Shown here: one piece after another, positions 16,000-25,930 of the stretch | How positions within the stretch are numbered: position 1 is the first letter of the stretch | Layout of the letters: each line of letters starts with the position of its first letter | Assembly: GCF_003070865.1 (NCBI RefSeq) | Contig: NZ_CP026948.1 | Coordinates: forward strand, 806,001 to 870,000 | Direction: 5' to 3' | Source: Corynebacterium liangguodongii | Lineage (GTDB): Bacteria > Actinomycetota > Actinomycetes > Mycobacteriales > Mycobacteriaceae | DNA length: 64,000 nucleotides | Notes under the pieces: generated by a model | Databases searched by the model: none | The model's input: the letters and a program-made list of their open reading frames with translations, nothing else | Told to the model about the DNA's origin: nothing | Program-made: the position numbers and the translations under genes

Positions 16000-17409
16000 C
16001 TAGTGTTCCTCTCGGGTGGTTTTCTTGCGTCGCGCGCGGGACAGCTCGCGCATGACCGCCCTCCAGCTCGTGCTCCCGCCTCTGGATCGCGCGTGGGTTT
16101 CGTCCGTGGCCACGGGGGTTTGCGCCCATGTCCTCTCGCCAATCCATTCGCGACGCTCGAAGACCGACTCGCGCTGCTCGACCTCGGCGATCTCGCGCCC
16201 CTCCGGGGTGGCAAACGTGATGGAGGCGGCCGTGCGCTCGCCGGAATGGATCGTGATCATGTCCATGATGTAGCGGAAGACCACGGCGACCATCGCGGCT
16301 GCCGGCACCGCGAGGAATGCCCCGACCAGGCCGAAGAGGCCGCCGCCGATGGTGACGGAGACGAGCACGATCACCGGGTGGAGGTCCATCGCCTTGGATT
16401 GCAGCACGGGGGAGAGCACGTTGCCCTCGAGCTGCTGGACCAAGATGACGATGGCGAGAACGATGAGGGCCTCGGTGAGACCGAGCGAGACGAGCGCGAC
16501 GAGCACGGCGAGCGCGCCGGCGACGACGGCGCCGACGATCGGGATAAAACCGGCGGCGAAGGTGATCACGGCCAGGGTAAAGGCCATGGGAACCCCGACG
16601 AGCCAGACTCCGGTGCCGATGACCGCGGCGTCGACAAAAGAGACGATGGCCTGGGCGCGGATGTAGCCCGAGAGTGTCCGCCACGCCCGCGTGAGCAGCT
16701 CGGTGGCGTGCAGGCCGGTGCGCCCCCCGGTCGCCCCGCGCAGCCAGGGCAGGAAGCGGGGGCCGTCTTTCAGGAAGAAGAACGTCAACACGAGCACGAC
16801 CATGAGCGTGACCATAAGGCCAGCGGCAGTCCCGATGCCGGCGAAGACACCACCGGCGATCGCTCCGGCCTGGTTTTGCAGCCAGCTCGAGAGCTGGTTG
16901 ACACCGTCGTTGAGTTCGTCGGGGTCGAGGTTGAGCGGCGGGCCCTGCATCCACAGCTGGAGGCGCTGCAGGCCCTCGAGGCCCTGGATGGCCAGCACGC
17001 GCGACTGTGACGCGACGTCCGGGGCGACGAGGGAGACCAAGGCCGCGCCGAGGCCGAAGAACGCGAGCAGCGAGATGGCCGCGGCCAGGCCCCCGGGGAG
17101 GTGGAGCCTGCGCAAGGCAGAGGCCACAGGCGCGAGCACGGTGCACACAATGAGGGCGAGGATGACCGGGAGGATGCCCTCCCAAAAGGCCCCGATGAGC
17201 ATCGCCAGGGCGTAGAGGAACACGCTGACGATGAGGATGCGCAGGGTAAACATTGCCGCCGACTTCAGCCAGCTGTTGAGCACGACGCCCCGGTCGACCC
17301 GTTGACGCGGGCCCGTCCCTTCTGTGGCCTCTGTGGCCCCTGTGTCCTCTGTGTTCTCTGTGTCCCCAGTGTGTTCGGGTTCTTCAGGCGTAGTCACGCG
17401 AACCATCAT
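16000..17409 (-). CDS. AI-2E family transporter (PerM/YdiK-like)
   Basis: The 469-residue protein has an acidic low-complexity N-terminus (about residues 8-35, Thr/Glu/Asp repeats), eight predicted helices and the family motif block ITFAAGFIPIVGAVVAG followed by QQLEGNVLSPVLQSKAMDLHP, which identifies the AI-2E/PerM group. The C-terminus is a charged Arg/Lys/Glu tail. These permeases export various small molecules or ions; the substrate cannot be stated. Start 17409 is one of two adjacent ATGs. It diverges from ychF across 48 bp. Confidence 0.88.
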   Translation of the reverse strand: MMVRVTTPEEPEHTGDTENTEDTGATEATEGTGPRQRVDRGVVLNSWLKSAAMFTLRILIVSVFLYALAMLIGAFWEGILPVILALIVCTVLAPVASALRRLHLPGGLAAAISLLAFFGLGAALVSLVAPDVASQSRVLAIQGLEGLQRLQLWMQGPPLNLDPDELNDGVNQLSSWLQNQAGAIAGGVFAGIGTAAGLMVTLMVVLVLTFFFLKDGPRFLPWLRGATGGRTGLHATELLTRAWRTLSGYIRAQAIVSFVDAAVIGTGVWLVGVPMAFTLAVITFAAGFIPIVGAVVAGALAVLVALVSLGLTEALIVLAIVILVQQLEGNVLSPVLQSKAMDLHPVIVLVSVTIGGGLFGLVGAFLAVPAAAMVAVVFRYIMDMITIHSGERTAASITFATPEGREIAEVEQRESVFERREWIGERTWAQTPVATDETHARSRGGSTSWRAVMRELSRARRKKTTREEH

Positions 17410-17457: not shown

Positions 17458-18543
17458 GTGAGTCTTACCCTTGGAATTGTCGGCCTGCCCAACGTGGGGA
17501 AATCCACCCTCTTTAATGCCTTGACGCGTAACGACGTCCTCGCGGCGAACTACCCGTTCGCCACCATCGAGCCGAACGTCGGCCTCGTCGAGCTGCCCGA
17601 CCCGCGCCTGCAGCGGCTGGCGGAGATCTTCTCCTCCGAGCGCATCCTCCCGGCGACGGTGTCTTTTGTGGATATCGCCGGCATTGTCAAGGGCGCCTCC
17701 GAGGGCGAGGGGATGGGCAATGCGTTCCTCGCCAACATCCGCGAAGCCGACGCGATCTGCCAGGTCGTGCGCGCCTTTTCCGACGACAACGTCATCCACG
17801 TCGATGGCAAGGTCGATCCCGCCAGCGACATCTCCGTGATCAACACCGAGCTCATCCTGGCGGACCTGCAAACCATTGAGAAGGCCCTGCCGCGCATGGA
17901 AAAGGAAGGCCGCAAGAACAAGGACGTCGCGGCCCAGGCCGAGGAGGCGAAGAAGGCCCAGGCTGTTCTGGAGGACGACCGAACGCTCTTCGCCGCCGCC
18001 AAGTCCGGTGAGATTGACCTCGCGCTGGTGCGCGATCTTCACCTAATGACGGCGAAGCCCTTCCTCTACGTGTTTAACTCCGACGAGGCTGTGCTGACCG
18101 ACGAGGCGCGCAAGGCCGAGCTGCGCGATTTGGTGGCCCCGGCCGAGGCTGTGTTCCTCGACGCCCAGACCGAAACCGAGCTGCTCGAGCTTGACGCCGA
18201 TGACGCGGCCGAACTGCTCGCGGCCGTGGGACAGGACGAGCCAGGGCTGGCGACGCTGGCCAAGGCCGGCTTTGACACGCTCGGCCTGCAGACCTACCTG
18301 ACGGCGGGCCCGAAGGAGTCGCGTGCCTGGACCATCCGCAAGGGCGACACCGCACCGAAGGCGGCAGGCGTGATCCACTCTGACTTCGAGAAGGGGTTCA
18401 TCAAGGCCGAGATCGTCGCCTTCGACGACTTGGATGAGCTCGGATCGATGGCCGAGGCGCGAGCCAAGGGCAAGGTGCGCATGGAGGGCAAGGACTACGT
18501 CATGGCGGATGGCGACGTCGTGGAGTTCAAGTTCAACGTCTAA
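17458..18543 (+). CDS. ychF: Redox-regulated ATPase YchF (Obg-family)
   Basis: YchF is a universal ribosome-associated P-loop ATPase. The 361-residue product has GLPNVGKS (9-16), the FATIEPNVG switch I, DIAGIVKGASEGEGMGNAFL (about 67-86), a central coiled coil with KNKDVAAQAEEAKKAQ, and the C-terminal TGS-like domain ending GDVVEFKFNV. The GTG at 17458 gives the normal N-terminus; earlier frames are antisense to the permease. Its 3' end is duplicated twice downstream as direct repeats, and the gene itself is intact. Confidence 0.97.
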   Translation: MSLTLGIVGLPNVGKSTLFNALTRNDVLAANYPFATIEPNVGLVELPDPRLQRLAEIFSSERILPATVSFVDIAGIVKGASEGEGMGNAFLANIREADAICQVVRAFSDDNVIHVDGKVDPASDISVINTELILADLQTIEKALPRMEKEGRKNKDVAAQAEEAKKAQAVLEDDRTLFAAAKSGEIDLALVRDLHLMTAKPFLYVFNSDEAVLTDEARKAELRDLVAPAEAVFLDAQTETELLELDADDAAELLAAVGQDEPGLATLAKAGFDTLGLQTYLTAGPKESRAWTIRKGDTAPKAAGVIHSDFEKGFIKAEIVAFDDLDELGSMAEARAKGKVRMEGKDYVMADGDVVEFKFNV

Positions 18544-18546
18544 CGT
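18511..18546 (+). repeat. ychF 3'-end direct repeat, copy A (native)
   Basis: The last codons of ychF plus the stop form the first of three direct repeats. Positions 18520-18546 are identical (27 bp) to 20409-20435, and 18511-18539 are identical (29 bp) to 21074-21102. It is the upstream boundary of the TIR-SLATT interval and behaves like an attachment or recombination site. Confidence 0.9.
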
Positions 18547-18785
18547 GTAGAGGCGCTGCCGAGTCGCGCCGTGAACGTTCTGCATGAATTGGGGCTGCCC
18601 GGAGAGCGTCCGAGAGGCCCTTCGCGGTAAGTCAGAACTCCGTGCGCGACCAAGTCGGTAGAGAGGTGTGGAGACCCCTAGCTTCCGCTCGGTGCTGCCG
18701 GTGGGTCGCAGGCGATCGAAACTCTGGAGATGCGTATCCTTGGCGCAGGGGTCTGCGCCGCGGCAGGCCCAGAGGAGGAACGTTC
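18547..18785. other. Non-coding leader between ychF and the TIR gene
   Basis: About 240 bp without a credible gene separate copy A from the TIR start. The segment has no strong hairpin with a T-run. It ends in AGAGGAGGAACG, the ribosome-binding site of the TIR gene, and probably also carries the cassette promoter, which I cannot place. Confidence 0.4.
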
Positions 18786-19340
18786 ATGGAACTGGGTCAA
18801 CACACTCGACGGAAGTGTTTCATCTCCTATCACCACGATGATGAGTACGAGGTGCAACAGTTCATCCAAGACTTCGATCATGACCAAGACGTCCTCATTG
18901 CGCGGGGCATCGGCGCGAGCATGGCCGGAGACATCATCAATAGCACCAACGAGGACTACATCAAGGCGAGGATTCGCGAGAAGTACCTGCGCGATACGAC
19001 CGTGACCATCGTTCTTGTGGGCAGATGCACGTGGGCTCGCAAGTTCGTGGACTGGGAGGTTGCTGCTTCATTGCGAAACACCTCAACTGCCAGCCGGAGT
19101 GGGCTGCTGGCTATCACGCTACCCTCGGCGGCTGACTACTACGACAAGAAGCTGCCTGCACGTGTGCGGGACAACATCATGGGTGCCAGTGGTGAAGATG
19201 GATACGCCCGCTGGTGGAAATATCCCAGCAGCGCCAGTAGCCTCGCGAACCTTATCGAGACAGCCTATGACGCGCGCACGTCGCGGGCCCACCTTGTTGA
19301 CAACAACCGTAACCTTCGGTCCTATAATTCCTCCTGCTGA
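18786..19340 (+). CDS. TIR-like (DUF1863/ThsB-type) domain protein
   Basis: This 184-residue protein starts at the ATG behind AGAGGAGG. It opens with KCFISYHHDDE (10-20), the first strand and loop of TIR-like domains of the MTH538/DUF1863 type, followed by DTTVTIVLVGRCTW (70-83) and KFVDWEV (86-92). Glu91 sits where NADase-active bacterial TIRs have their catalytic Glu. ThsB proteins of the Thoeris system belong to this class and make a nucleotide signal from NAD+. It has no transmembrane helix. Its stop overlaps the next start (TGATG), so it is coupled to the SLATT gene. Base composition is clearly lower in GC than ychF. Enzymatic activity is inferred. Confidence 0.82.
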   Translation: MELGQHTRRKCFISYHHDDEYEVQQFIQDFDHDQDVLIARGIGASMAGDIINSTNEDYIKARIREKYLRDTTVTIVLVGRCTWARKFVDWEVAASLRNTSTASRSGLLAITLPSAADYYDKKLPARVRDNIMGASGEDGYARWWKYPSSASSLANLIETAYDARTSRAHLVDNNRNLRSYNSSC

Positions 19341-20230
19341 TGCCTGGCCCACTGACCGAAACGGACCTGCCGGAGTTCTGGCGGAATGCTGATGCTGCAT
19401 CTCAGAGCGGGCAGAAGTGGACTCTGCGGTACGAGCGCCTGCGGCTGGGAGGGAGCATTGTGGCAGCCCTTGGGGCGGCATTCTCGCTCCCCGTGGGGCG
19501 CGTAGATCTGGCGGCATCGGTGATCCTGCTTGGTTTCATGGTGGCGCTCATTGCCGAACTCGCTGCATGGGCCCACAAGCCGGCGGAACGTTGGTACGAC
19601 GGTCGGGCGCTCGCTGAGTCCGCTAAGACACTGGCATGGCGATACGCTGTGGGGGCCGACCCATTCCCCGTCTCTTTGGACCAGTCTGCGGCGAAGGACC
19701 TGCTGCGCGAGCGTCTGGCCAAGATCGCTGAGGAGGCATCGGAACGAGTTACGGTCACCGCGCCTGGGCCGCTCGTAACCTCGGGGATGCAGGCCTTGCG
19801 CGACGCACCCTTTCATGCGCGTCGCGATGCCTACTTGAATGGCCGCACCAAGGACCAGCAGAGTTGGTACGCAACCAAGGCCGATGACAATCGAAAGCAC
19901 GCTACGGGCTGGCGAATTGCGCTCGTGAGCGCCGAGGTGGTCGCCCTTGTGCTTGCTTCCCTGCGGGCGGTTGGAGGGTGGCGTGTGGACCTTGCAGGCC
20001 TCATGGCGGCTCTCATCGCGGCAGGGGCAGCATGGGTGGGCGTGAAACAGTTCTCGCCGCTAGCGGCTGCCTACTCTATGGCAGCGATGGAGCTGGCGAT
20101 ACAGACAGACAAGTTGGAGTCTGTCCCTGAGCAGGACTGGCCGAGCGTGGTTGCTGATGCCGAGGAGGCCATCAGTCGTGAGCACACAATGTGGCTAGCG
20201 TCCAGGACGGGGAAGCGGCCGAAGGTGTAG
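19340..20230 (+). CDS. Tandem SLATT-domain four-helix membrane protein (DUF4231-like)
   Basis: The 296-residue protein has two halves, each with a hairpin of two transmembrane helices: about residues 36-53 and 57-77, then about 191-211 and 217-236. Between them lies a soluble charged stretch, and after them a short helical tail. This architecture, with FWRNADAASQSGQKWTLRYERLRL before the first pair and SWYATKADDNRKHATGWR before the second, matches tandem SLATT domains. SLATT proteins are predicted two-helix membrane effectors of nucleotide-signalled conflict systems. No sensor domain is visible, so the signal may be received by the soluble stretch. It is translationally coupled to the TIR gene. 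Confidence 0.8.
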   Translation: MPGPLTETDLPEFWRNADAASQSGQKWTLRYERLRLGGSIVAALGAAFSLPVGRVDLAASVILLGFMVALIAELAAWAHKPAERWYDGRALAESAKTLAWRYAVGADPFPVSLDQSAAKDLLRERLAKIAEEASERVTVTAPGPLVTSGMQALRDAPFHARRDAYLNGRTKDQQSWYATKADDNRKHATGWRIALVSAEVVALVLASLRAVGGWRVDLAGLMAALIAAGAAWVGVKQFSPLAAAYSMAAMELAIQTDKLESVPEQDWPSVVADAEEAISREHTMWLASRTGKRPKV

Positions 20231-20399
20231 GCGGAGGATGTTGCTCAGGTGTTGACTGAGGGAGCGTCACGGCGACGTCCTGCCTGAAGGTCTCTTCGAC
20301 GAAGAGAACGCATCAAGCGACCTCTGAATCCTCGCAATGACACTCTGACCAGGGCAATCACTCCCTGACGTCCTCGAGCCCCGTCATCGTTCAATGCGT
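20231..20399. other. Spacer after the SLATT gene
   Basis: The 170-bp spacer holds a small perfect hairpin (TCTCTTC at 20291-20297, GAAGAGA at 20301-20307) without a T-run. I see no gene and no recognisable integrase remnant. Confidence 0.4.
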
Positions 20400-20435
20400 G
20401 GCGATGTGGTGGAGTTCAAGTTCAACGTCTAACGT
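20400..20435 (+). repeat. ychF 3'-end direct repeat, copy B
   Basis: The segment matches the ychF end with two substitutions (positions equivalent to 18516 and 18519) and then 27 identical bases, including the TAA stop and the following CGT. It is detached from any ychF reading frame. It closes the TIR-SLATT interval and opens the toxin-antitoxin interval. Confidence 0.9.
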
Positions 20436-20462
20436 CTGGTTGTGGCCTTGCACGCCACTTGG

Positions 20463-20484
20463 GTACAACTTGTACAAGTTGTAC
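20463..20484 (+). promoter_or_regulatory. Perfect 22-bp palindromic operator of the Phd/RelE module
   Basis: GTACAACTT and AAGTTGTAC flank a central GTAC, making a 22-bp palindrome with no mismatch, ending 9 bp before the antitoxin start codon. Phd-family antitoxins bind such palindromes with the toxin to repress their own operon, so this is the likely autoregulatory site. Its closeness to the start suggests it overlaps the promoter or early leader. Confidence 0.8.
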
Positions 20485-20493
20485 GATGGTGTC

Positions 20494-20739
20494 ATGACTT
20501 CCGTGACTTTGTCCCAGTTCCGTCGCCAGCAGAGCGACTACATTGCCGCGGCTCAGCGCGAACCCGTTGAGATCACGTCGCGTGGCGCGGGCTGCCGCGC
20601 GGTTGTCGTGTCGCCGGAATTCTACGACCGTGCGGTACGCGCACTGGAGGATCAGGCTGATATCTGCGTCGCTGCTGAAGCGCGCAACGAGAAGGGGCGC
20701 GTCTCGCACGAAGAACTCGTGCGCGAGCTCGGTCTTTGA
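20494..20739 (+). CDS. Phd/YefM family antitoxin
   Basis: The 81-residue protein starts MTSVTLSQFRRQQSDYIAAAQREPVEITSRGAGCRAVVVSPEFYDRAV (split here near residue 30 in reading: VEITSRG is the DNA-binding fold core, AVVVSPEFYD the second strand). This is the standard Phd/YefM N-terminal fold; the acidic C-terminal part would bind and neutralise the toxin. The ATG at 20494 is chosen because the palindrome lies just upstream; an in-frame ATG at 20398 would run through copy B and the operator. The RelE toxin gene follows after 9 bp. Confidence 0.88.
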   Translation: MTSVTLSQFRRQQSDYIAAAQREPVEITSRGAGCRAVVVSPEFYDRAVRALEDQADICVAAEARNEKGRVSHEELVRELGL

Positions 20740-20748
20740 ACCTGCTAG

Positions 20749-21006
20749 ATGTCGTACACGATCACTTATGTCCCTTCAGCAGCGAAGGCGATCCGGAAGC
20801 TCGACAGGTCGACGGCACGCCGCTTGCTGGATGCAATCGAATCGCTCGCAGGCGATCCCCGTCCTCCTGGGAGCATCCAGCTGAAGGGAGGTAGCGGTGA
20901 GTTCCGAATTCGCGTGGGAGACTACCGAGTCGTGTACGACATCCACCACGACGAACTGGTGGTACTCGTGCTCAGGGTCGGGCACCGCCGAGAGGTTTAC
21001 CGCTGA
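20749..21006 (+). CDS. RelE/ParE family toxin
   Basis: The 85-residue product reads SYTITYVPSAAKAIRKLD near the start and ends with the conserved core FRIRVGDYRVVYDIHHDEL then VLRVGHRREVYR, the RelE superfamily C-terminal sheet. RelE toxins cleave mRNA on the ribosome. Basic residues Arg53, Arg55 and Arg60 and the C-terminal RREVYR fit an active toxin. It forms a two-gene operon with the Phd antitoxin inside the copy B-copy C interval. Confidence 0.88.
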   Translation: MSYTITYVPSAAKAIRKLDRSTARRLLDAIESLAGDPRPPGSIQLKGGSGEFRIRVGDYRVVYDIHHDELVVLVLRVGHRREVYR

Positions 21007-21073
21007 AAGGGGCTCACACTTACAGGACGCATCCAACGACGAGGGAACGGCTAGCGCGGGTTCAAAAGACTAC

Positions 21074-21108
21074 GGCGACGTCGTGGAGTTCAAGTTCAAC
21101 GTGTAGCG
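21074..21108 (+). repeat. ychF 3'-end direct repeat, copy C
   Basis: The first 29 bases equal those of the native ychF end, then diverge, keeping a stop codon (TAG). The bases before it read AAAAGACTAC, like the native AAGGACTAC but lacking the next 12 bp of ychF (codons for VMAD). Copy C thus looks like the end of a divergent ychF allele joined by recombination. It closes the toxin-antitoxin interval. Confidence 0.88.
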
Positions 21109-21143
21109 CTATTGACGCTTCGCGTTGTGGCGGATACGGCGAA

Positions 21144-21405
21144 GCTATTCAGTCGTTCGCCGACAAGGACACTGAGCGGTTGCGGAATCGAGAACGGGTT
21201 CGCTCGATCAATTCTGCGGAAGCCCTGCCAACTTGTGTATTTGCAGAGGCTTCAGGAGTCGCGGAATCCTCAGGGAAACCGGACCGGGTCGTTGAAGGGC
21301 GATCGGCGGGGTCAGTACAGCATTCGAATCAACGACCTGTGGCGGATCTGTTTTCGGTGGAACGCGGCTCGGCGAGAGGGGGTCGAGATCGATGACTATC
21401 ACTGA
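21144..21405 (+). pseudogene. Degraded HigB/RelE-like toxin gene
   Basis: The first frame encodes AIQSFADKDTERLRNRERVRSI, the typical N-terminus of HigB host-inhibition toxins. The continuation (LRKPCQLVYLQRLQE, NPQGNRTGSLKGDRRGQYSIRI, NDLWRICFRW, EIDDYH) is in another frame, so an indel near 21210 breaks the gene. The expected ATG before the first segment is missing. The stop overlaps the start of a HigA-like gene, as in intact higBA pairs. Confidence 0.75.
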
Positions 21406-21600
21406 CAAGCCCCTTCCGGTCCACCCGGGAGTAATCCTCATGGAGGACTTTGTCGGGAGATGGGGATAACCCGACACAAGCTCGCCGTCTTCATCGGCGT
21501 TCATCCTTGCCGGATTAACGAGATTGTGAGGGGAAAGCGCGATCACTGCGGACACGGCGCTTCCGGTGGCGAAATTTTTCGGGATCGAGCAGATCAAGCC
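21392..21600 (+). pseudogene. Degraded HigA-like antitoxin gene (XRE family)
   Basis: The start MTITDKPLPVHPGVILMEDF is typical of HigA, but the frame stops after GRWG. The helix-turn-helix segment GITRHKLAVFIGVHPCRINEIVRGKR follows in a second frame, and ITADTALPVAKFFG in a third. At least two frameshifts have destroyed the gene. With the broken toxin upstream it forms a dead higBA module at the edge of the accessory segment. Confidence 0.75.
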
Positions 21601-21646
21601 CAGTGAAATTGTCTCGACGCAGCAGGCGGGCTGCTTTCAACCGAAG

Positions 21647-22237
21647 CTAGATACGTTGTGCGAGGTGAGGATAGTAAAGGACAACCCCTTCCCTGTCGAC
21701 TTCCAGCTCGACGTCCACCCCGCGCGTGCCGCTCGAGTAGCGGACGGCCCCAGGGCTGATCGAGCTGTAGTACTGGTCTGAAGCAATCACCTGGAGAGAG
21801 GGAACATCAATCCAGGCCATGAGAAGTTGAGTACTGGGAACTTCCGCTTCGAGCAGACCCAGGCGACGGATCGGCATTGTATTCGTGAGGGGGCACAGGG
21901 CGAGGTCGCAGTCCAGCGCAGTTGAAAGATCAGCTGACTCGGCGATGCCGGGGGAGGGGAGACCTAGTGGCTGGATGCCCGATTCCTCGATCGCCGACGT
22001 CCACTCGCCGCCGTCGGTCCTCACAAGGTCAAGGTGTCGCCTCCATCCCTCGCCCACAACGTCGATTGCGACGCGCTGGGTAACCCAGTTCTCCACAGCG
22101 CTCAACGTCCATGCGGCACTGTACCCCTCGCCATGTTGGGTGCCGGTCGCGGATAAACCAGCATCGTGAAACCGCACCCGTGCTTCGTTTCTGATGCTTG
22201 GATTATTGATGTGCTGCCACGCGTAGGTACGCTCCAT
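21647..22237 (-). CDS. Putative glycolipid-binding family protein (PF06475-like)
   Basis: The 196-residue protein shows YSAAWTLSAVENWVTQRVAIDV near residue 40, the segment DLALCPLTNTMPIRRLGLL at about 110-128, and a C-terminal VELEVDREGVVLYYPHLAQRI. These agree with the putative glycolipid-binding family, whose members share the pattern of N-T-x-P-I-R-R-L and a final hydrophobic-D-Y-P segment. There is no signal peptide. It reads toward the decayed higBA genes and has no obvious operon partner. Confidence 0.75.
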   Translation of the reverse strand: MERTYAWQHINNPSIRNEARVRFHDAGLSATGTQHGEGYSAAWTLSAVENWVTQRVAIDVVGEGWRRHLDLVRTDGGEWTSAIEESGIQPLGLPSPGIAESADLSTALDCDLALCPLTNTMPIRRLGLLEAEVPSTQLLMAWIDVPSLQVIASDQYYSSISPGAVRYSSGTRGVDVELEVDREGVVLYYPHLAQRI

Positions 22238-24661: not shown

Positions 24662-25893
24662 GCCACACCGACCTCAGCGCGGCTGCCCTCGACGAGGGCG
24701 GTGATGTATCGCTCCATGGCGCCCACGGCCTCGGTGTGGATGTTAACCATCCCGTAGACGGCGACGTTCTCATCCGGCTCGAAGCGCATCCGGGCGGCGT
24801 TGACGAGCTCCCGGCCGTCGGAGTCGTCGGCCTCGAGGGTGGTGACGATCTTGTCATCGGGCACGCCGAGGTCGAGCAGCTTCTTCTGCACGACCTCCTG
24901 GATCTCGCCGTAGAGCACGATGAGGTCCGAGGAATCGAGCAGCTCCTCGCAGACGAGGTCGACGAACATCGCGGCGCGGTCGGTGCGGTCCGCGCGGTTG
25001 TTCAGCGCGATGACGTGGTGGCAGTCATCCGGCAGGCCCTGCTTGACGTCGTCAAAGACCCGGACGGTGGACTCCCAGTCGTTGATGGCGAACATTGGAA
25101 CCCAGTAGAGATCGGGGGCCTCAGGGTCGGCGATGCGGGTCACGCGCGTCGTCCCGGGATCGGGGGCGGCGGCGAGCATGCCGCGGGTGGCTGTCTCGGG
25201 GTCGATGCCGAGGAGGTCTGCGACGGCGAGGACCACCGCGACGTTTTCCTCGAACTGCTGGTAGTCAAACTTGTCCACGAGCGAGCGCGATAGCGCGGAT
25301 TCTTCAGCGACGACGAGGCGGGCGCCCTTGGCATCGCAGTGCTCCTGAAGGATAGCCACGAGGTCGGGGTTGCGCTCTCCGGTGACGACGAAGCCGTGGT
25401 CGGGCACAGTCGAGCAGAGGGACGCGGCGATCTCCTCGACGGTGTCTCCCATGTCTTCCTGGTGGTCGAGGCGCACGTTGGTGATCACGCAGATGGGGGA
25501 GCGCAGGATGACGTCTTGGCACAGCGTCTGGTACTTGGGCTTGACGGCCATGCACTCGAAGACGGCGGCGGTGATCTCGGGGGTGACCCACTGCTTGAGG
25601 ATGTCGTATTGCTCGTTGATGTTGGCGGGGCCGCTGCGCGCGATCGCGTGCTCGCCACCGGCCTGGTCGATGACGCAGGCGTAGGTGCCGGTGGTCTTGG
25701 CAATCGCGCTGTAGCCGGCGGCGCGCAAAACCCCGCCGATCATGCGGGTGACGGTCGACTTGCCGCGGATGCCGTTGACGTGGACGTTGACGTCAAGGCT
25801 GTGCAGGGTCTGCGTGTGGCGGTTCTCGCGGCGGCGAAATCCTTCCATGGCTATCGCTGCCGAGGCACCGGCAGCGGCCAGAAAAGTAAGCAT
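24658..25893 (-). CDS. capB: Poly-gamma-glutamate synthase PgsB/CapB-like ligase
   Basis: CapB is a Mur-ligase-type amide ligase that joins glutamates through the gamma carboxyl using ATP. The 411-residue product has an N-terminal membrane helix (about 3-17), the P-loop GIRGKSTVTR (41-50), KTTGTYACVID, the ECMAVKPKYQ block and TNVRLDHQEDMG (near residue 140), all typical of CapB. It ends with LNNRADRTDRA and a C-terminal domain. GGAG precedes the ATG. It leads a four-gene operon: capB, double capC, an amidohydrolase and a small secreted protein. No CapA/PgsA gene is present in the window. Confidence 0.88.
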   Translation of the reverse strand: MLTFLAAAGASAAIAMEGFRRRENRHTQTLHSLDVNVHVNGIRGKSTVTRMIGGVLRAAGYSAIAKTTGTYACVIDQAGGEHAIARSGPANINEQYDILKQWVTPEITAAVFECMAVKPKYQTLCQDVILRSPICVITNVRLDHQEDMGDTVEEIAASLCSTVPDHGFVVTGERNPDLVAILQEHCDAKGARLVVAEESALSRSLVDKFDYQQFEENVAVVLAVADLLGIDPETATRGMLAAAPDPGTTRVTRIADPEAPDLYWVPMFAINDWESTVRVFDDVKQGLPDDCHHVIALNNRADRTDRAAMFVDLVCEELLDSSDLIVLYGEIQEVVQKKLLDLGVPDDKIVTTLEADDSDGRELVNAARMRFEPDENVAVYGMVNIHTEAVGAMERYITALVEGSRAEVGVA

Positions 25894-25930
25894 GTTGTGC
25901 GCTCCAATAAAAACTTTGGAAAGAGGATGG

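Follow-up and report, generated by a model that had tools for sequence, protein, structure and literature searches.

We analysed a 64,000-bp stretch of the Corynebacterium liangguodongii genome (contig NZ_CP026948.1, positions 806,001 to 870,000; hereafter the window), in which the 3' end of the ychF gene is repeated downstream of the gene itself and the repeats enclose small gene modules. The explanation we favor, with a probability of about 80%, is that the ychF 3' end serves as the attachment site (attB) of a Corynebacterium family of large serine recombinases (LSRs), at which small cassettes resembling the staphylococcal cassette chromosome (SCC) are stacked and moved partly in trans.

The target gene ychF occupies positions 17458..18543 on the plus strand (PF06071, 2.9e-38; PF01926, 2.8e-22). 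A repeat search of the window revealed one family of 37-nt direct repeats with three copies, spaced 1889 and 674 bp apart and all on the plus strand. Copy A is the native ychF end (18510-18546, core GT at 18520-18521; repeat search and pattern scan). Copy B (20399-20435, core GT at 20409-20410; 95% identical to copy A) probably combines the right arm of cassette 1 with the ychF end carried by cassette 2, and copy C (21073-21109, core GT at 21083-21084; 89% identical) the right arm of cassette 2 with what would be the oldest ychF end. The GT cores were placed from the genus-wide boundary-switch profile described below; a match to genome G021 stops at core C, and the sequence to the right of the core comprises the last six codons of ychF and its stop. 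The preliminary description had claimed three same-direction repeats, and these were found, including the 27-bp block that A shares with B and the 29-bp block that it shares with C. When both strands of the window were scanned with a degenerate ychF-end pattern, allowing two mismatches, copies A, B, and C were the only matches. Likewise, the 20-mer GTGGAGTTCAAGTTCAACGT, with up to two mismatches, had three forward and no reverse occurrences in the whole genome (2,357,924 bp), and a reversed control pattern had none. The explanation by a generally dispersed repeat was therefore dropped.

The nine best ychF matches with a named source are all from Corynebacterium. The genus was represented by 242 Corynebacterium genomes, one per species. 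The degenerate pattern with up to one mismatch matched in 174 of them, and 36 genomes had two or three matches, which in no case lay on both strands (reversed control, none). The scan undercounts since many inner boundaries start with ACCGT or TCCGT and require two mismatches. In the fetched loci, boundaries were defined as ychF ends plus pattern copies with up to one mismatch; 78 bounded intervals in 48 loci ranged from 451 to 17,649 bp and had varied cargo, and the longest run consisted of six boundaries in series (locus L177). Loci with a single copy within roughly 5 kb after ychF also exist (L194-L196, L199-L205). Blastn comparison of 66 intervals yielded 37 families, eight of which span different genomes, often at differing places in the arrays; a ninth multi-member family (family 6; L069 and L161) was not counted and was taken as one assembly, its two members lying on contigs of equal length (255,635). 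The recurring cassettes are 92-99.9% identical, while the ychF ends of their hosts are 70-97% identical and the array orders differ; a 3.2-kb cassette, for example, is 97% identical between hosts with 70% identical ychF ends. In 57 of 59 different-locus pairs, identity was higher between the cassettes than between the final ~300 bp of the two ychF genes. Both exceptions were comparisons of L161 with L069, and after removal of these and of five repeats from that assembly the count was 52 of 52. Genomes G204 and G206 share an array, the sole difference being that G206 has an additional, exact cassette between two common ones. Such sharing suggests that cassettes pass between species. The proposal of a modular insertion hotspot is borne out by the variable cargo between ychF-end copies and, as it had predicted, by single-copy genomes and cassettes common to species in other orders; the same repeats and cargo are not fixed in all relatives.

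The candidate enzyme is an LSR with Resolvase (PF00239, 2.5e-31) and Recombinase (PF07508, 1.4e-13) domains, the solved relatives of which are integrases and resolvases. Matches at E <= 1e-20, with fragments counted, were found in 54 of the 242 genomes. Near-full-length homologues with at least 41% identity are present in 27 genomes, as one piece in 24 (with a stop in G036) and in pieces in three (G215, G260, and G243). In 20 of these 27 genomes, the LSR gene is found downstream of ychF, at a distance of between 25 bp and 8.1 kb from its end; in eight genomes it starts 25-27 bp after ychF, and in G253 and G243 it is in the opposite direction. More distant LSRs, with just ~41-61% identity to the 503-aa LSR that was read from C. 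mucifaciens (L071), also occur after ychF. Several cassettes of relatives open with a shortened LSR, which would be one route to non-autonomous cassettes. As for the origin of the LSR, a search of viral contigs, which reaches close relatives only, revealed no close relative.

In the genome of C. liangguodongii, neither a search for PF07508 (E <= 0.001) nor one with the LSR of relatives (E <= 1e-20; 6 of 16 first-look candidates scored) gave a match, and no LSR remnant was detected in the window by tblastn at E <= 1. The preliminary description had asserted the absence of an integrase, which agrees with these searches as far as the LSR is concerned; tyrosine recombinases and transposases elsewhere in it were not searched for. 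Since no LSR was found, the array in the window looks stranded or in need of help in trans. Two mechanisms had been offered, a recombinase supplied in trans and homologous recombination between the repeats. The former is the better of the two, and the LSR family encoded just downstream of ychF in relatives is its candidate.

The position of the breakpoints bears directly on this choice. The boundary profile was built from 141 unique boundaries (150 before exact duplicates were removed). Pairs sharing only the left cassette (n = 106) are alike up to the GT dinucleotide, with a mismatch frequency of at most 0.17 at positions -15 to -1 and 0.53 at +2. Pairs sharing only the right cassette (n = 129) have mostly 0.3-0.7 mismatch left of GT, and to the right of it the mismatch starts at 0.49 (+2) and declines gradually to 0.04 (+17), with no step at GT. 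Thus, the left limit is sharp at GT, while the right limit is gradual; codon drift during service as the ychF end, or additional exchange inside the tract, may have contributed to the gradient. In genomes G036 and G238, an LSR element opens at GT with its own ychF-end copy at a non-ychF locus, and in G260 the start of an LSR element with GT and a ychF-end copy lies ~2.5 kb after ychF. The ychF-end copy is therefore part of the mobile DNA. Alternatively, the cassettes could be shuffled by homologous recombination between the short repeats of the ychF end, with the recombinase being incidental; it would account for the exchange gradient in right-shared pairs, and the arrays do supply repeated homology. 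We regard it as quite unlikely as the main mechanism: the shared tracts are only ~20 bp long and have wobble differences, the left breakpoint falls at a single dinucleotide in the profile of 106 left-shared pairs, LSR elements open at GT away from the ychF end in the three genomes just named, and the origin of the first insertion would be left unexplained. When the site occupied in G036 was sought in its empty state, the best relative's match ended 94 bp short of the junction. The arrays at non-ychF loci begin at 1515942 in G036 and at 274211 of contig C81 in G238, and G012 has a higBA-like match ~2.7 kb from the locus corresponding to this array site.

The right ends of the elements have a common arm with a consensus of about AGGTTA...CGGAACGTG. 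An arm model covering the 26 bp that precede GT was derived from 32 distinct arms of non-LSR intervals; the window, a Gordonia locus, L232, L235, L245, and a single tandem pattern hit were left out, and the 3513 GT sites of the window served as background. The right boundaries of LSR-bearing intervals fell within the top 0.11% of these sites in 8 of 8 cases, these being the LSR intervals with a right boundary found, and an unseen inner boundary could assign some of the arms to a neighbor. Judged by this model, LSR-bearing elements carry the right-end arm of the non-LSR cassettes.

Integration into the 3' end of a gene with restoration of that gene is also typical of tyrosine integrases. Another integrase of this type, from a phage or an integrative and conjugative element (ICE), could have been responsible for duplicating the ychF end, in which case the LSR elements would be later guests that copied the site. 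Some intervals are as long as 10-18 kb, tyrosine integrases were not searched for, and an attB of Streptococcus pneumoniae phages lies beside ychF, between it and a DUF951 gene (PMC8637289, Table 4). The sequence of that pneumococcal site is unrelated to the one found here, and the available part of that paper describes no cassette arrays. We give this explanation a very low probability, given that the LSR gene follows ychF at no more than 8.1 kb in 20 of 27 genomes, that LSR intervals and non-LSR cassettes share the arm in all eight cases, and that the GT core is constant.

The LSR-based mechanism would operate as follows. The right end of an element is the right arm, and its left start, immediately after the GT core, would be its own version of the last ychF codons (NGARTTYAARTTYAAYGTN plus the stop). 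Recombination at GT, presumably catalyzed by this LSR family, would insert the element just before the ychF stop, so that the cassette to the right supplies the last ychF codons and rebuilds the YchF C-terminus, and the old ychF end is pushed downstream and remains as a repeat. Repeated insertion could produce arrays of a single orientation, with the newest cassette next to ychF, a stacking direction that would follow from the mechanism. Some elements would bring a recombinase, and many, having none or a shortened one, would probably be moved in trans by the enzyme of a relative. The window would then represent a two-cassette array, a TIR-SLATT module followed by a Phd-ParE module, placed before an older higBA-like unit.

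Cassette 1 (18520..20408, plus strand) measures 1889 bp from core to core. It encodes a 184-aa TIR-like protein (ThsB_TIR; 18786..19340, plus; PF08937, 4.4e-19; PADLOC ThsB, 1.7e-10) and a 296-aa protein with SLATT_3 and SLATT_1 domains, predicted two-transmembrane (2TM) effector domains (19340..20230, plus; PF18184, 4.1e-44; PF18181, 5.1e-39). The TIR protein fits the ThsB models of the Thoeris system; its partner is a SLATT protein by Pfam, with no match in PADLOC, and not ThsA. Cassette 2 (20409..21082, plus; 674 bp) contains a toxin-antitoxin pair composed of an 81-aa Phd/YefM-family antitoxin (20494..20739, plus; PF02604, 9.6e-10) and an 85-aa ParE-family toxin (20749..21006, plus; PF05016, 7.9e-16). 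Both intervals, of 1.9 and 0.67 kb, thus contain the single conflict module that had been ascribed to each.

Copy C is followed by a HigB-like open reading frame (ORF) (21112..21405, plus; PF05015, 1.4e-7) and by a broken higA-like stretch (21392..21600, plus), which was named by eye and has no such ORF in the list; the single ORF scanned in this region, at 21566-21781, had no Pfam match. The module after copy C, previously described as decayed, is broken in its higA part, while the HigB-like ORF is open. Many 70-79% DNA matches to the latter in relatives begin near copy C, with a similar junction there, and the matches of the higBA-like unit to those of relatives extend to ~21590. A fourth boundary to the right of this unit was not found within two mismatches. 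The higBA units past the last copy in relatives can also be bounded cassettes, a point absent from the preliminary description.

Cassette 2 recurs in two genomes. In G021 (contig C74), it is 97% identical over window positions 20406-21084; the match opens 3 bp ahead of core B and closes at core C. Its left neighbor there ends in a strong arm (L233:4562), which outscores all 3513 background GT sites, and to the right of the core follows DNA matching window positions 24971-25905, 3.9 kb past copy C; this suggests a deletion or rearrangement via a GT in the gene located there. In G179, the identity is 98% over 20406-21013, where the match breaks off inside the cassette, and the left flank has no arm-like score. 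The window copies could also be an old relic, local duplications of the ychF end between which genes landed with no mobile history; the failure to find an LSR in this genome and the weakness of arms B and C would fit this. It appears highly improbable, since in G021 a 97% match to the 674-bp cassette stops no more than 3 bp from either core, and since the same architecture is present in many genomes of the genus.

The LSR elements would also leave a trace in the host protein. Common YchF endings are ...EFKFNV or EFRFNV; the ending is ...FNVT where the 503-aa LSR or its shortened form comes next, and ...RTGLTSGxKK and similar in several genomes where other LSRs lie downstream (e.g., G015, G020, G083, G124, and G158). 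Endings of the latter type are also present in G021, G025, and G180, which have no LSR match. G003 has ...FNTTSANKK. A separate group of YchF proteins ends in CDFKIGG and lacks the usual site; it includes G036, whose LSR element sits elsewhere. As far as these endings indicate, the YchF C-terminus is rewritten by the elements, a point missing from the preliminary description.

Several observations weigh against our interpretation. The LSR is far from ychF on the same contig in 2 of the 27 genomes (G036, and G160 at 48.6 kb) and on another contig in five (G238, G249, G215, G246, and G091), and altered YchF endings occur without an LSR match, e.g., in G021, G025, and G180. The gradient on the right side of the boundaries is not what a clean 2-bp crossover would be expected to produce. 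The arms of the window are weak: arm B ranks in the top 2.1% with the 32-arm model and 1.3% with the first, 42-arm model, and arm C in the top 1.1% and 2.1%, respectively. Some training arms scored as low as -12.2 in leave-one-out analysis, and native ychF ends also score well (median 8.7; copy A of the window in the top 0.23%), so the model shows likeness and is no private signature of cassette ends. For the element with the 503-aa LSR, the right end could not be placed firmly, and its arm in G036 and G238 looks different. No copy of the whole of cassette 1 was found in the search of the 242 genomes; its nearest counterpart, a gene-level relative with 77% identity in G078, lies far from the ychF of that genome. 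Finally, no recombination, excision, or circle has been observed.

The functions of the cargo were surveyed in 118 hand-picked representatives of 435 ORF clusters (827 ORFs), and the tally, with 25 of 82 and 25 of 145 matching families listed without the matching member, is illustrative and not a measure. Pfam and PADLOC matches included Abi_2/AbiD, ApeA, AAA_13, type I and II methyltransferases, Mads proteins, E1-E2 ATPases, alkylmercury lyase, rRNA adenine dimethylase, and transposases; a match to an nSTAND NTPase was barely above the cut-off, and relaxase domains were found in two of the 118 ORFs among the matches listed. The 2.3-kb cassette that distinguishes G206 from G204 (L177:8660-10974, oriented) has relatives in L160, L164, and L171, and the start of a cassette of this type is present in L069. 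Behind a shortened LSR start it carries an rRNA adenine dimethylase-like ORF (the one PF00398 match among the 118 ORFs), which we presume to be of the Erm type. An 8.4-kb cassette (L176:8625-17012, oriented) contains ORFs resembling, by eye, P-type ATPases, multicopper oxidases, and histidine kinases; it is common to five genomes at 97-99% identity, one of which has a longer version.

Integrons also exchange small cassettes in same-orientation arrays at a common site. The arrays described here differ in that the recombinase would be of the serine and not the tyrosine type, and each boundary is a copy of the end of a host gene. The arrays also resemble SCC and the Enterococcus cassette chromosome (ECC), LSR elements that insert in the rlmH 3' region and have att repeats, variable cargo, and composite islands (PMC6222049, PMC10581047). 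Features in common are the 3' region of a conserved gene as the site, repeats at the ends and between stacked cassettes, variable cargo, and composite islands. The target gene here is ychF, not rlmH; CcrAB requires a central GA (PMC10581047), whereas the core here appears to be GT; and the cassettes are as small as under 1 kb. An element-borne LSR is present in relatives and was not found in the window genome. The likeness lies in the architecture.

Cis-mobilizable elements (CIMEs), remnants of ICEs or integrative and mobilizable elements (IMEs), keep attL and attR without integration genes and stack beside the target gene, and in accretion such tandems are transferred together with conjugative elements (PMC5704250). 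Cassettes 1 and 2 likewise lack integration genes, have both att sites, and are stacked at the target, so CIME formation and accretion would describe the stacked remnant state well. They differ in being single modules without transfer genes, and mobilization in trans by an LSR is proposed for them. As regards a possible origin by decay from an ICE or IME, LSR fragments open some of the relatives' cassettes, no such remnant was detected in the window, and relaxases match two of the 118 scanned ORFs. On sequence grounds, the best reading is that of a system like SCC that uses a new site and has cassettes of unusually small size, which would be recombined and mobilized in trans by the LSR. Among the matches listed in open-access PubMed Central (titles and starts of abstracts; subscription papers and preprints lie outside it), there was no report of ychF integration in Corynebacterium, and the passages searched in the C. 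aurimucosum genome paper (PMC2830990) yielded nothing on this site.

Outside Corynebacterium, 67 ychF-end loci were scanned with their own 20-bp end at up to three mismatches, and 12 copies were found versus six for a tenfold set of control 20-mers drawn from the same genes. In six of these 12 copies, including those in Mycobacterium sp. URHD0025 (L142) and Dietzia aurantiaca (L082), the arm ranks in the top 1%; in the other six it does not. A first, looser control was weaker (78 named loci, up to four mismatches, 21 copies versus 17 for fivefold control 20-mers). We tentatively suggest, as slightly short of an even chance, that ychF is a shared port of an actinobacterial network in which diverse serine recombinases move bare single-module cassettes in trans. 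If so, Corynebacterium and its relatives would trade defense, toxin-antitoxin, and metal- or drug-resistance modules through a serine-recombinase counterpart of integrons, in which every element brings a working ychF end. The site would give the spread of such modules among Corynebacterium a concrete address and a candidate enzyme. The repeats make the arrays easy to find, and the system would also provide a recombination site that is naturally small and precise and lies within a conserved gene, as well as a clean test of the movement of bare cassettes in trans.

Some further matches were observed. Near position 16802 of the Brevibacterium senegalense locus L136, a ychF-end copy with a Corynebacterium-like arm is followed by TAGCGTTATTGACGG, which resembles the start of Corynebacterium higB units. 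Searches of phage collections with the window DNA yielded four matches, all to unannotated records. One of them, MT836021.1 (L034), deposited as a bacteriophage, contains a ychF end followed by higB-like sequence, repeated 1.67 kb further on, and is probably a bacterial chromosome. Within cassette 1, window positions 18763-19036 are 81% identical to 274 bp of a Rothia terrae plasmid, which has a weak LSR-like stretch ~1.2 kb upstream of these 274 bp; a second Rothia terrae plasmid record also matches. Next to the end of the array, the minus strand of the window encodes a Glycolipid_bind family protein (21647-22237; PF06475, 6.1e-34).

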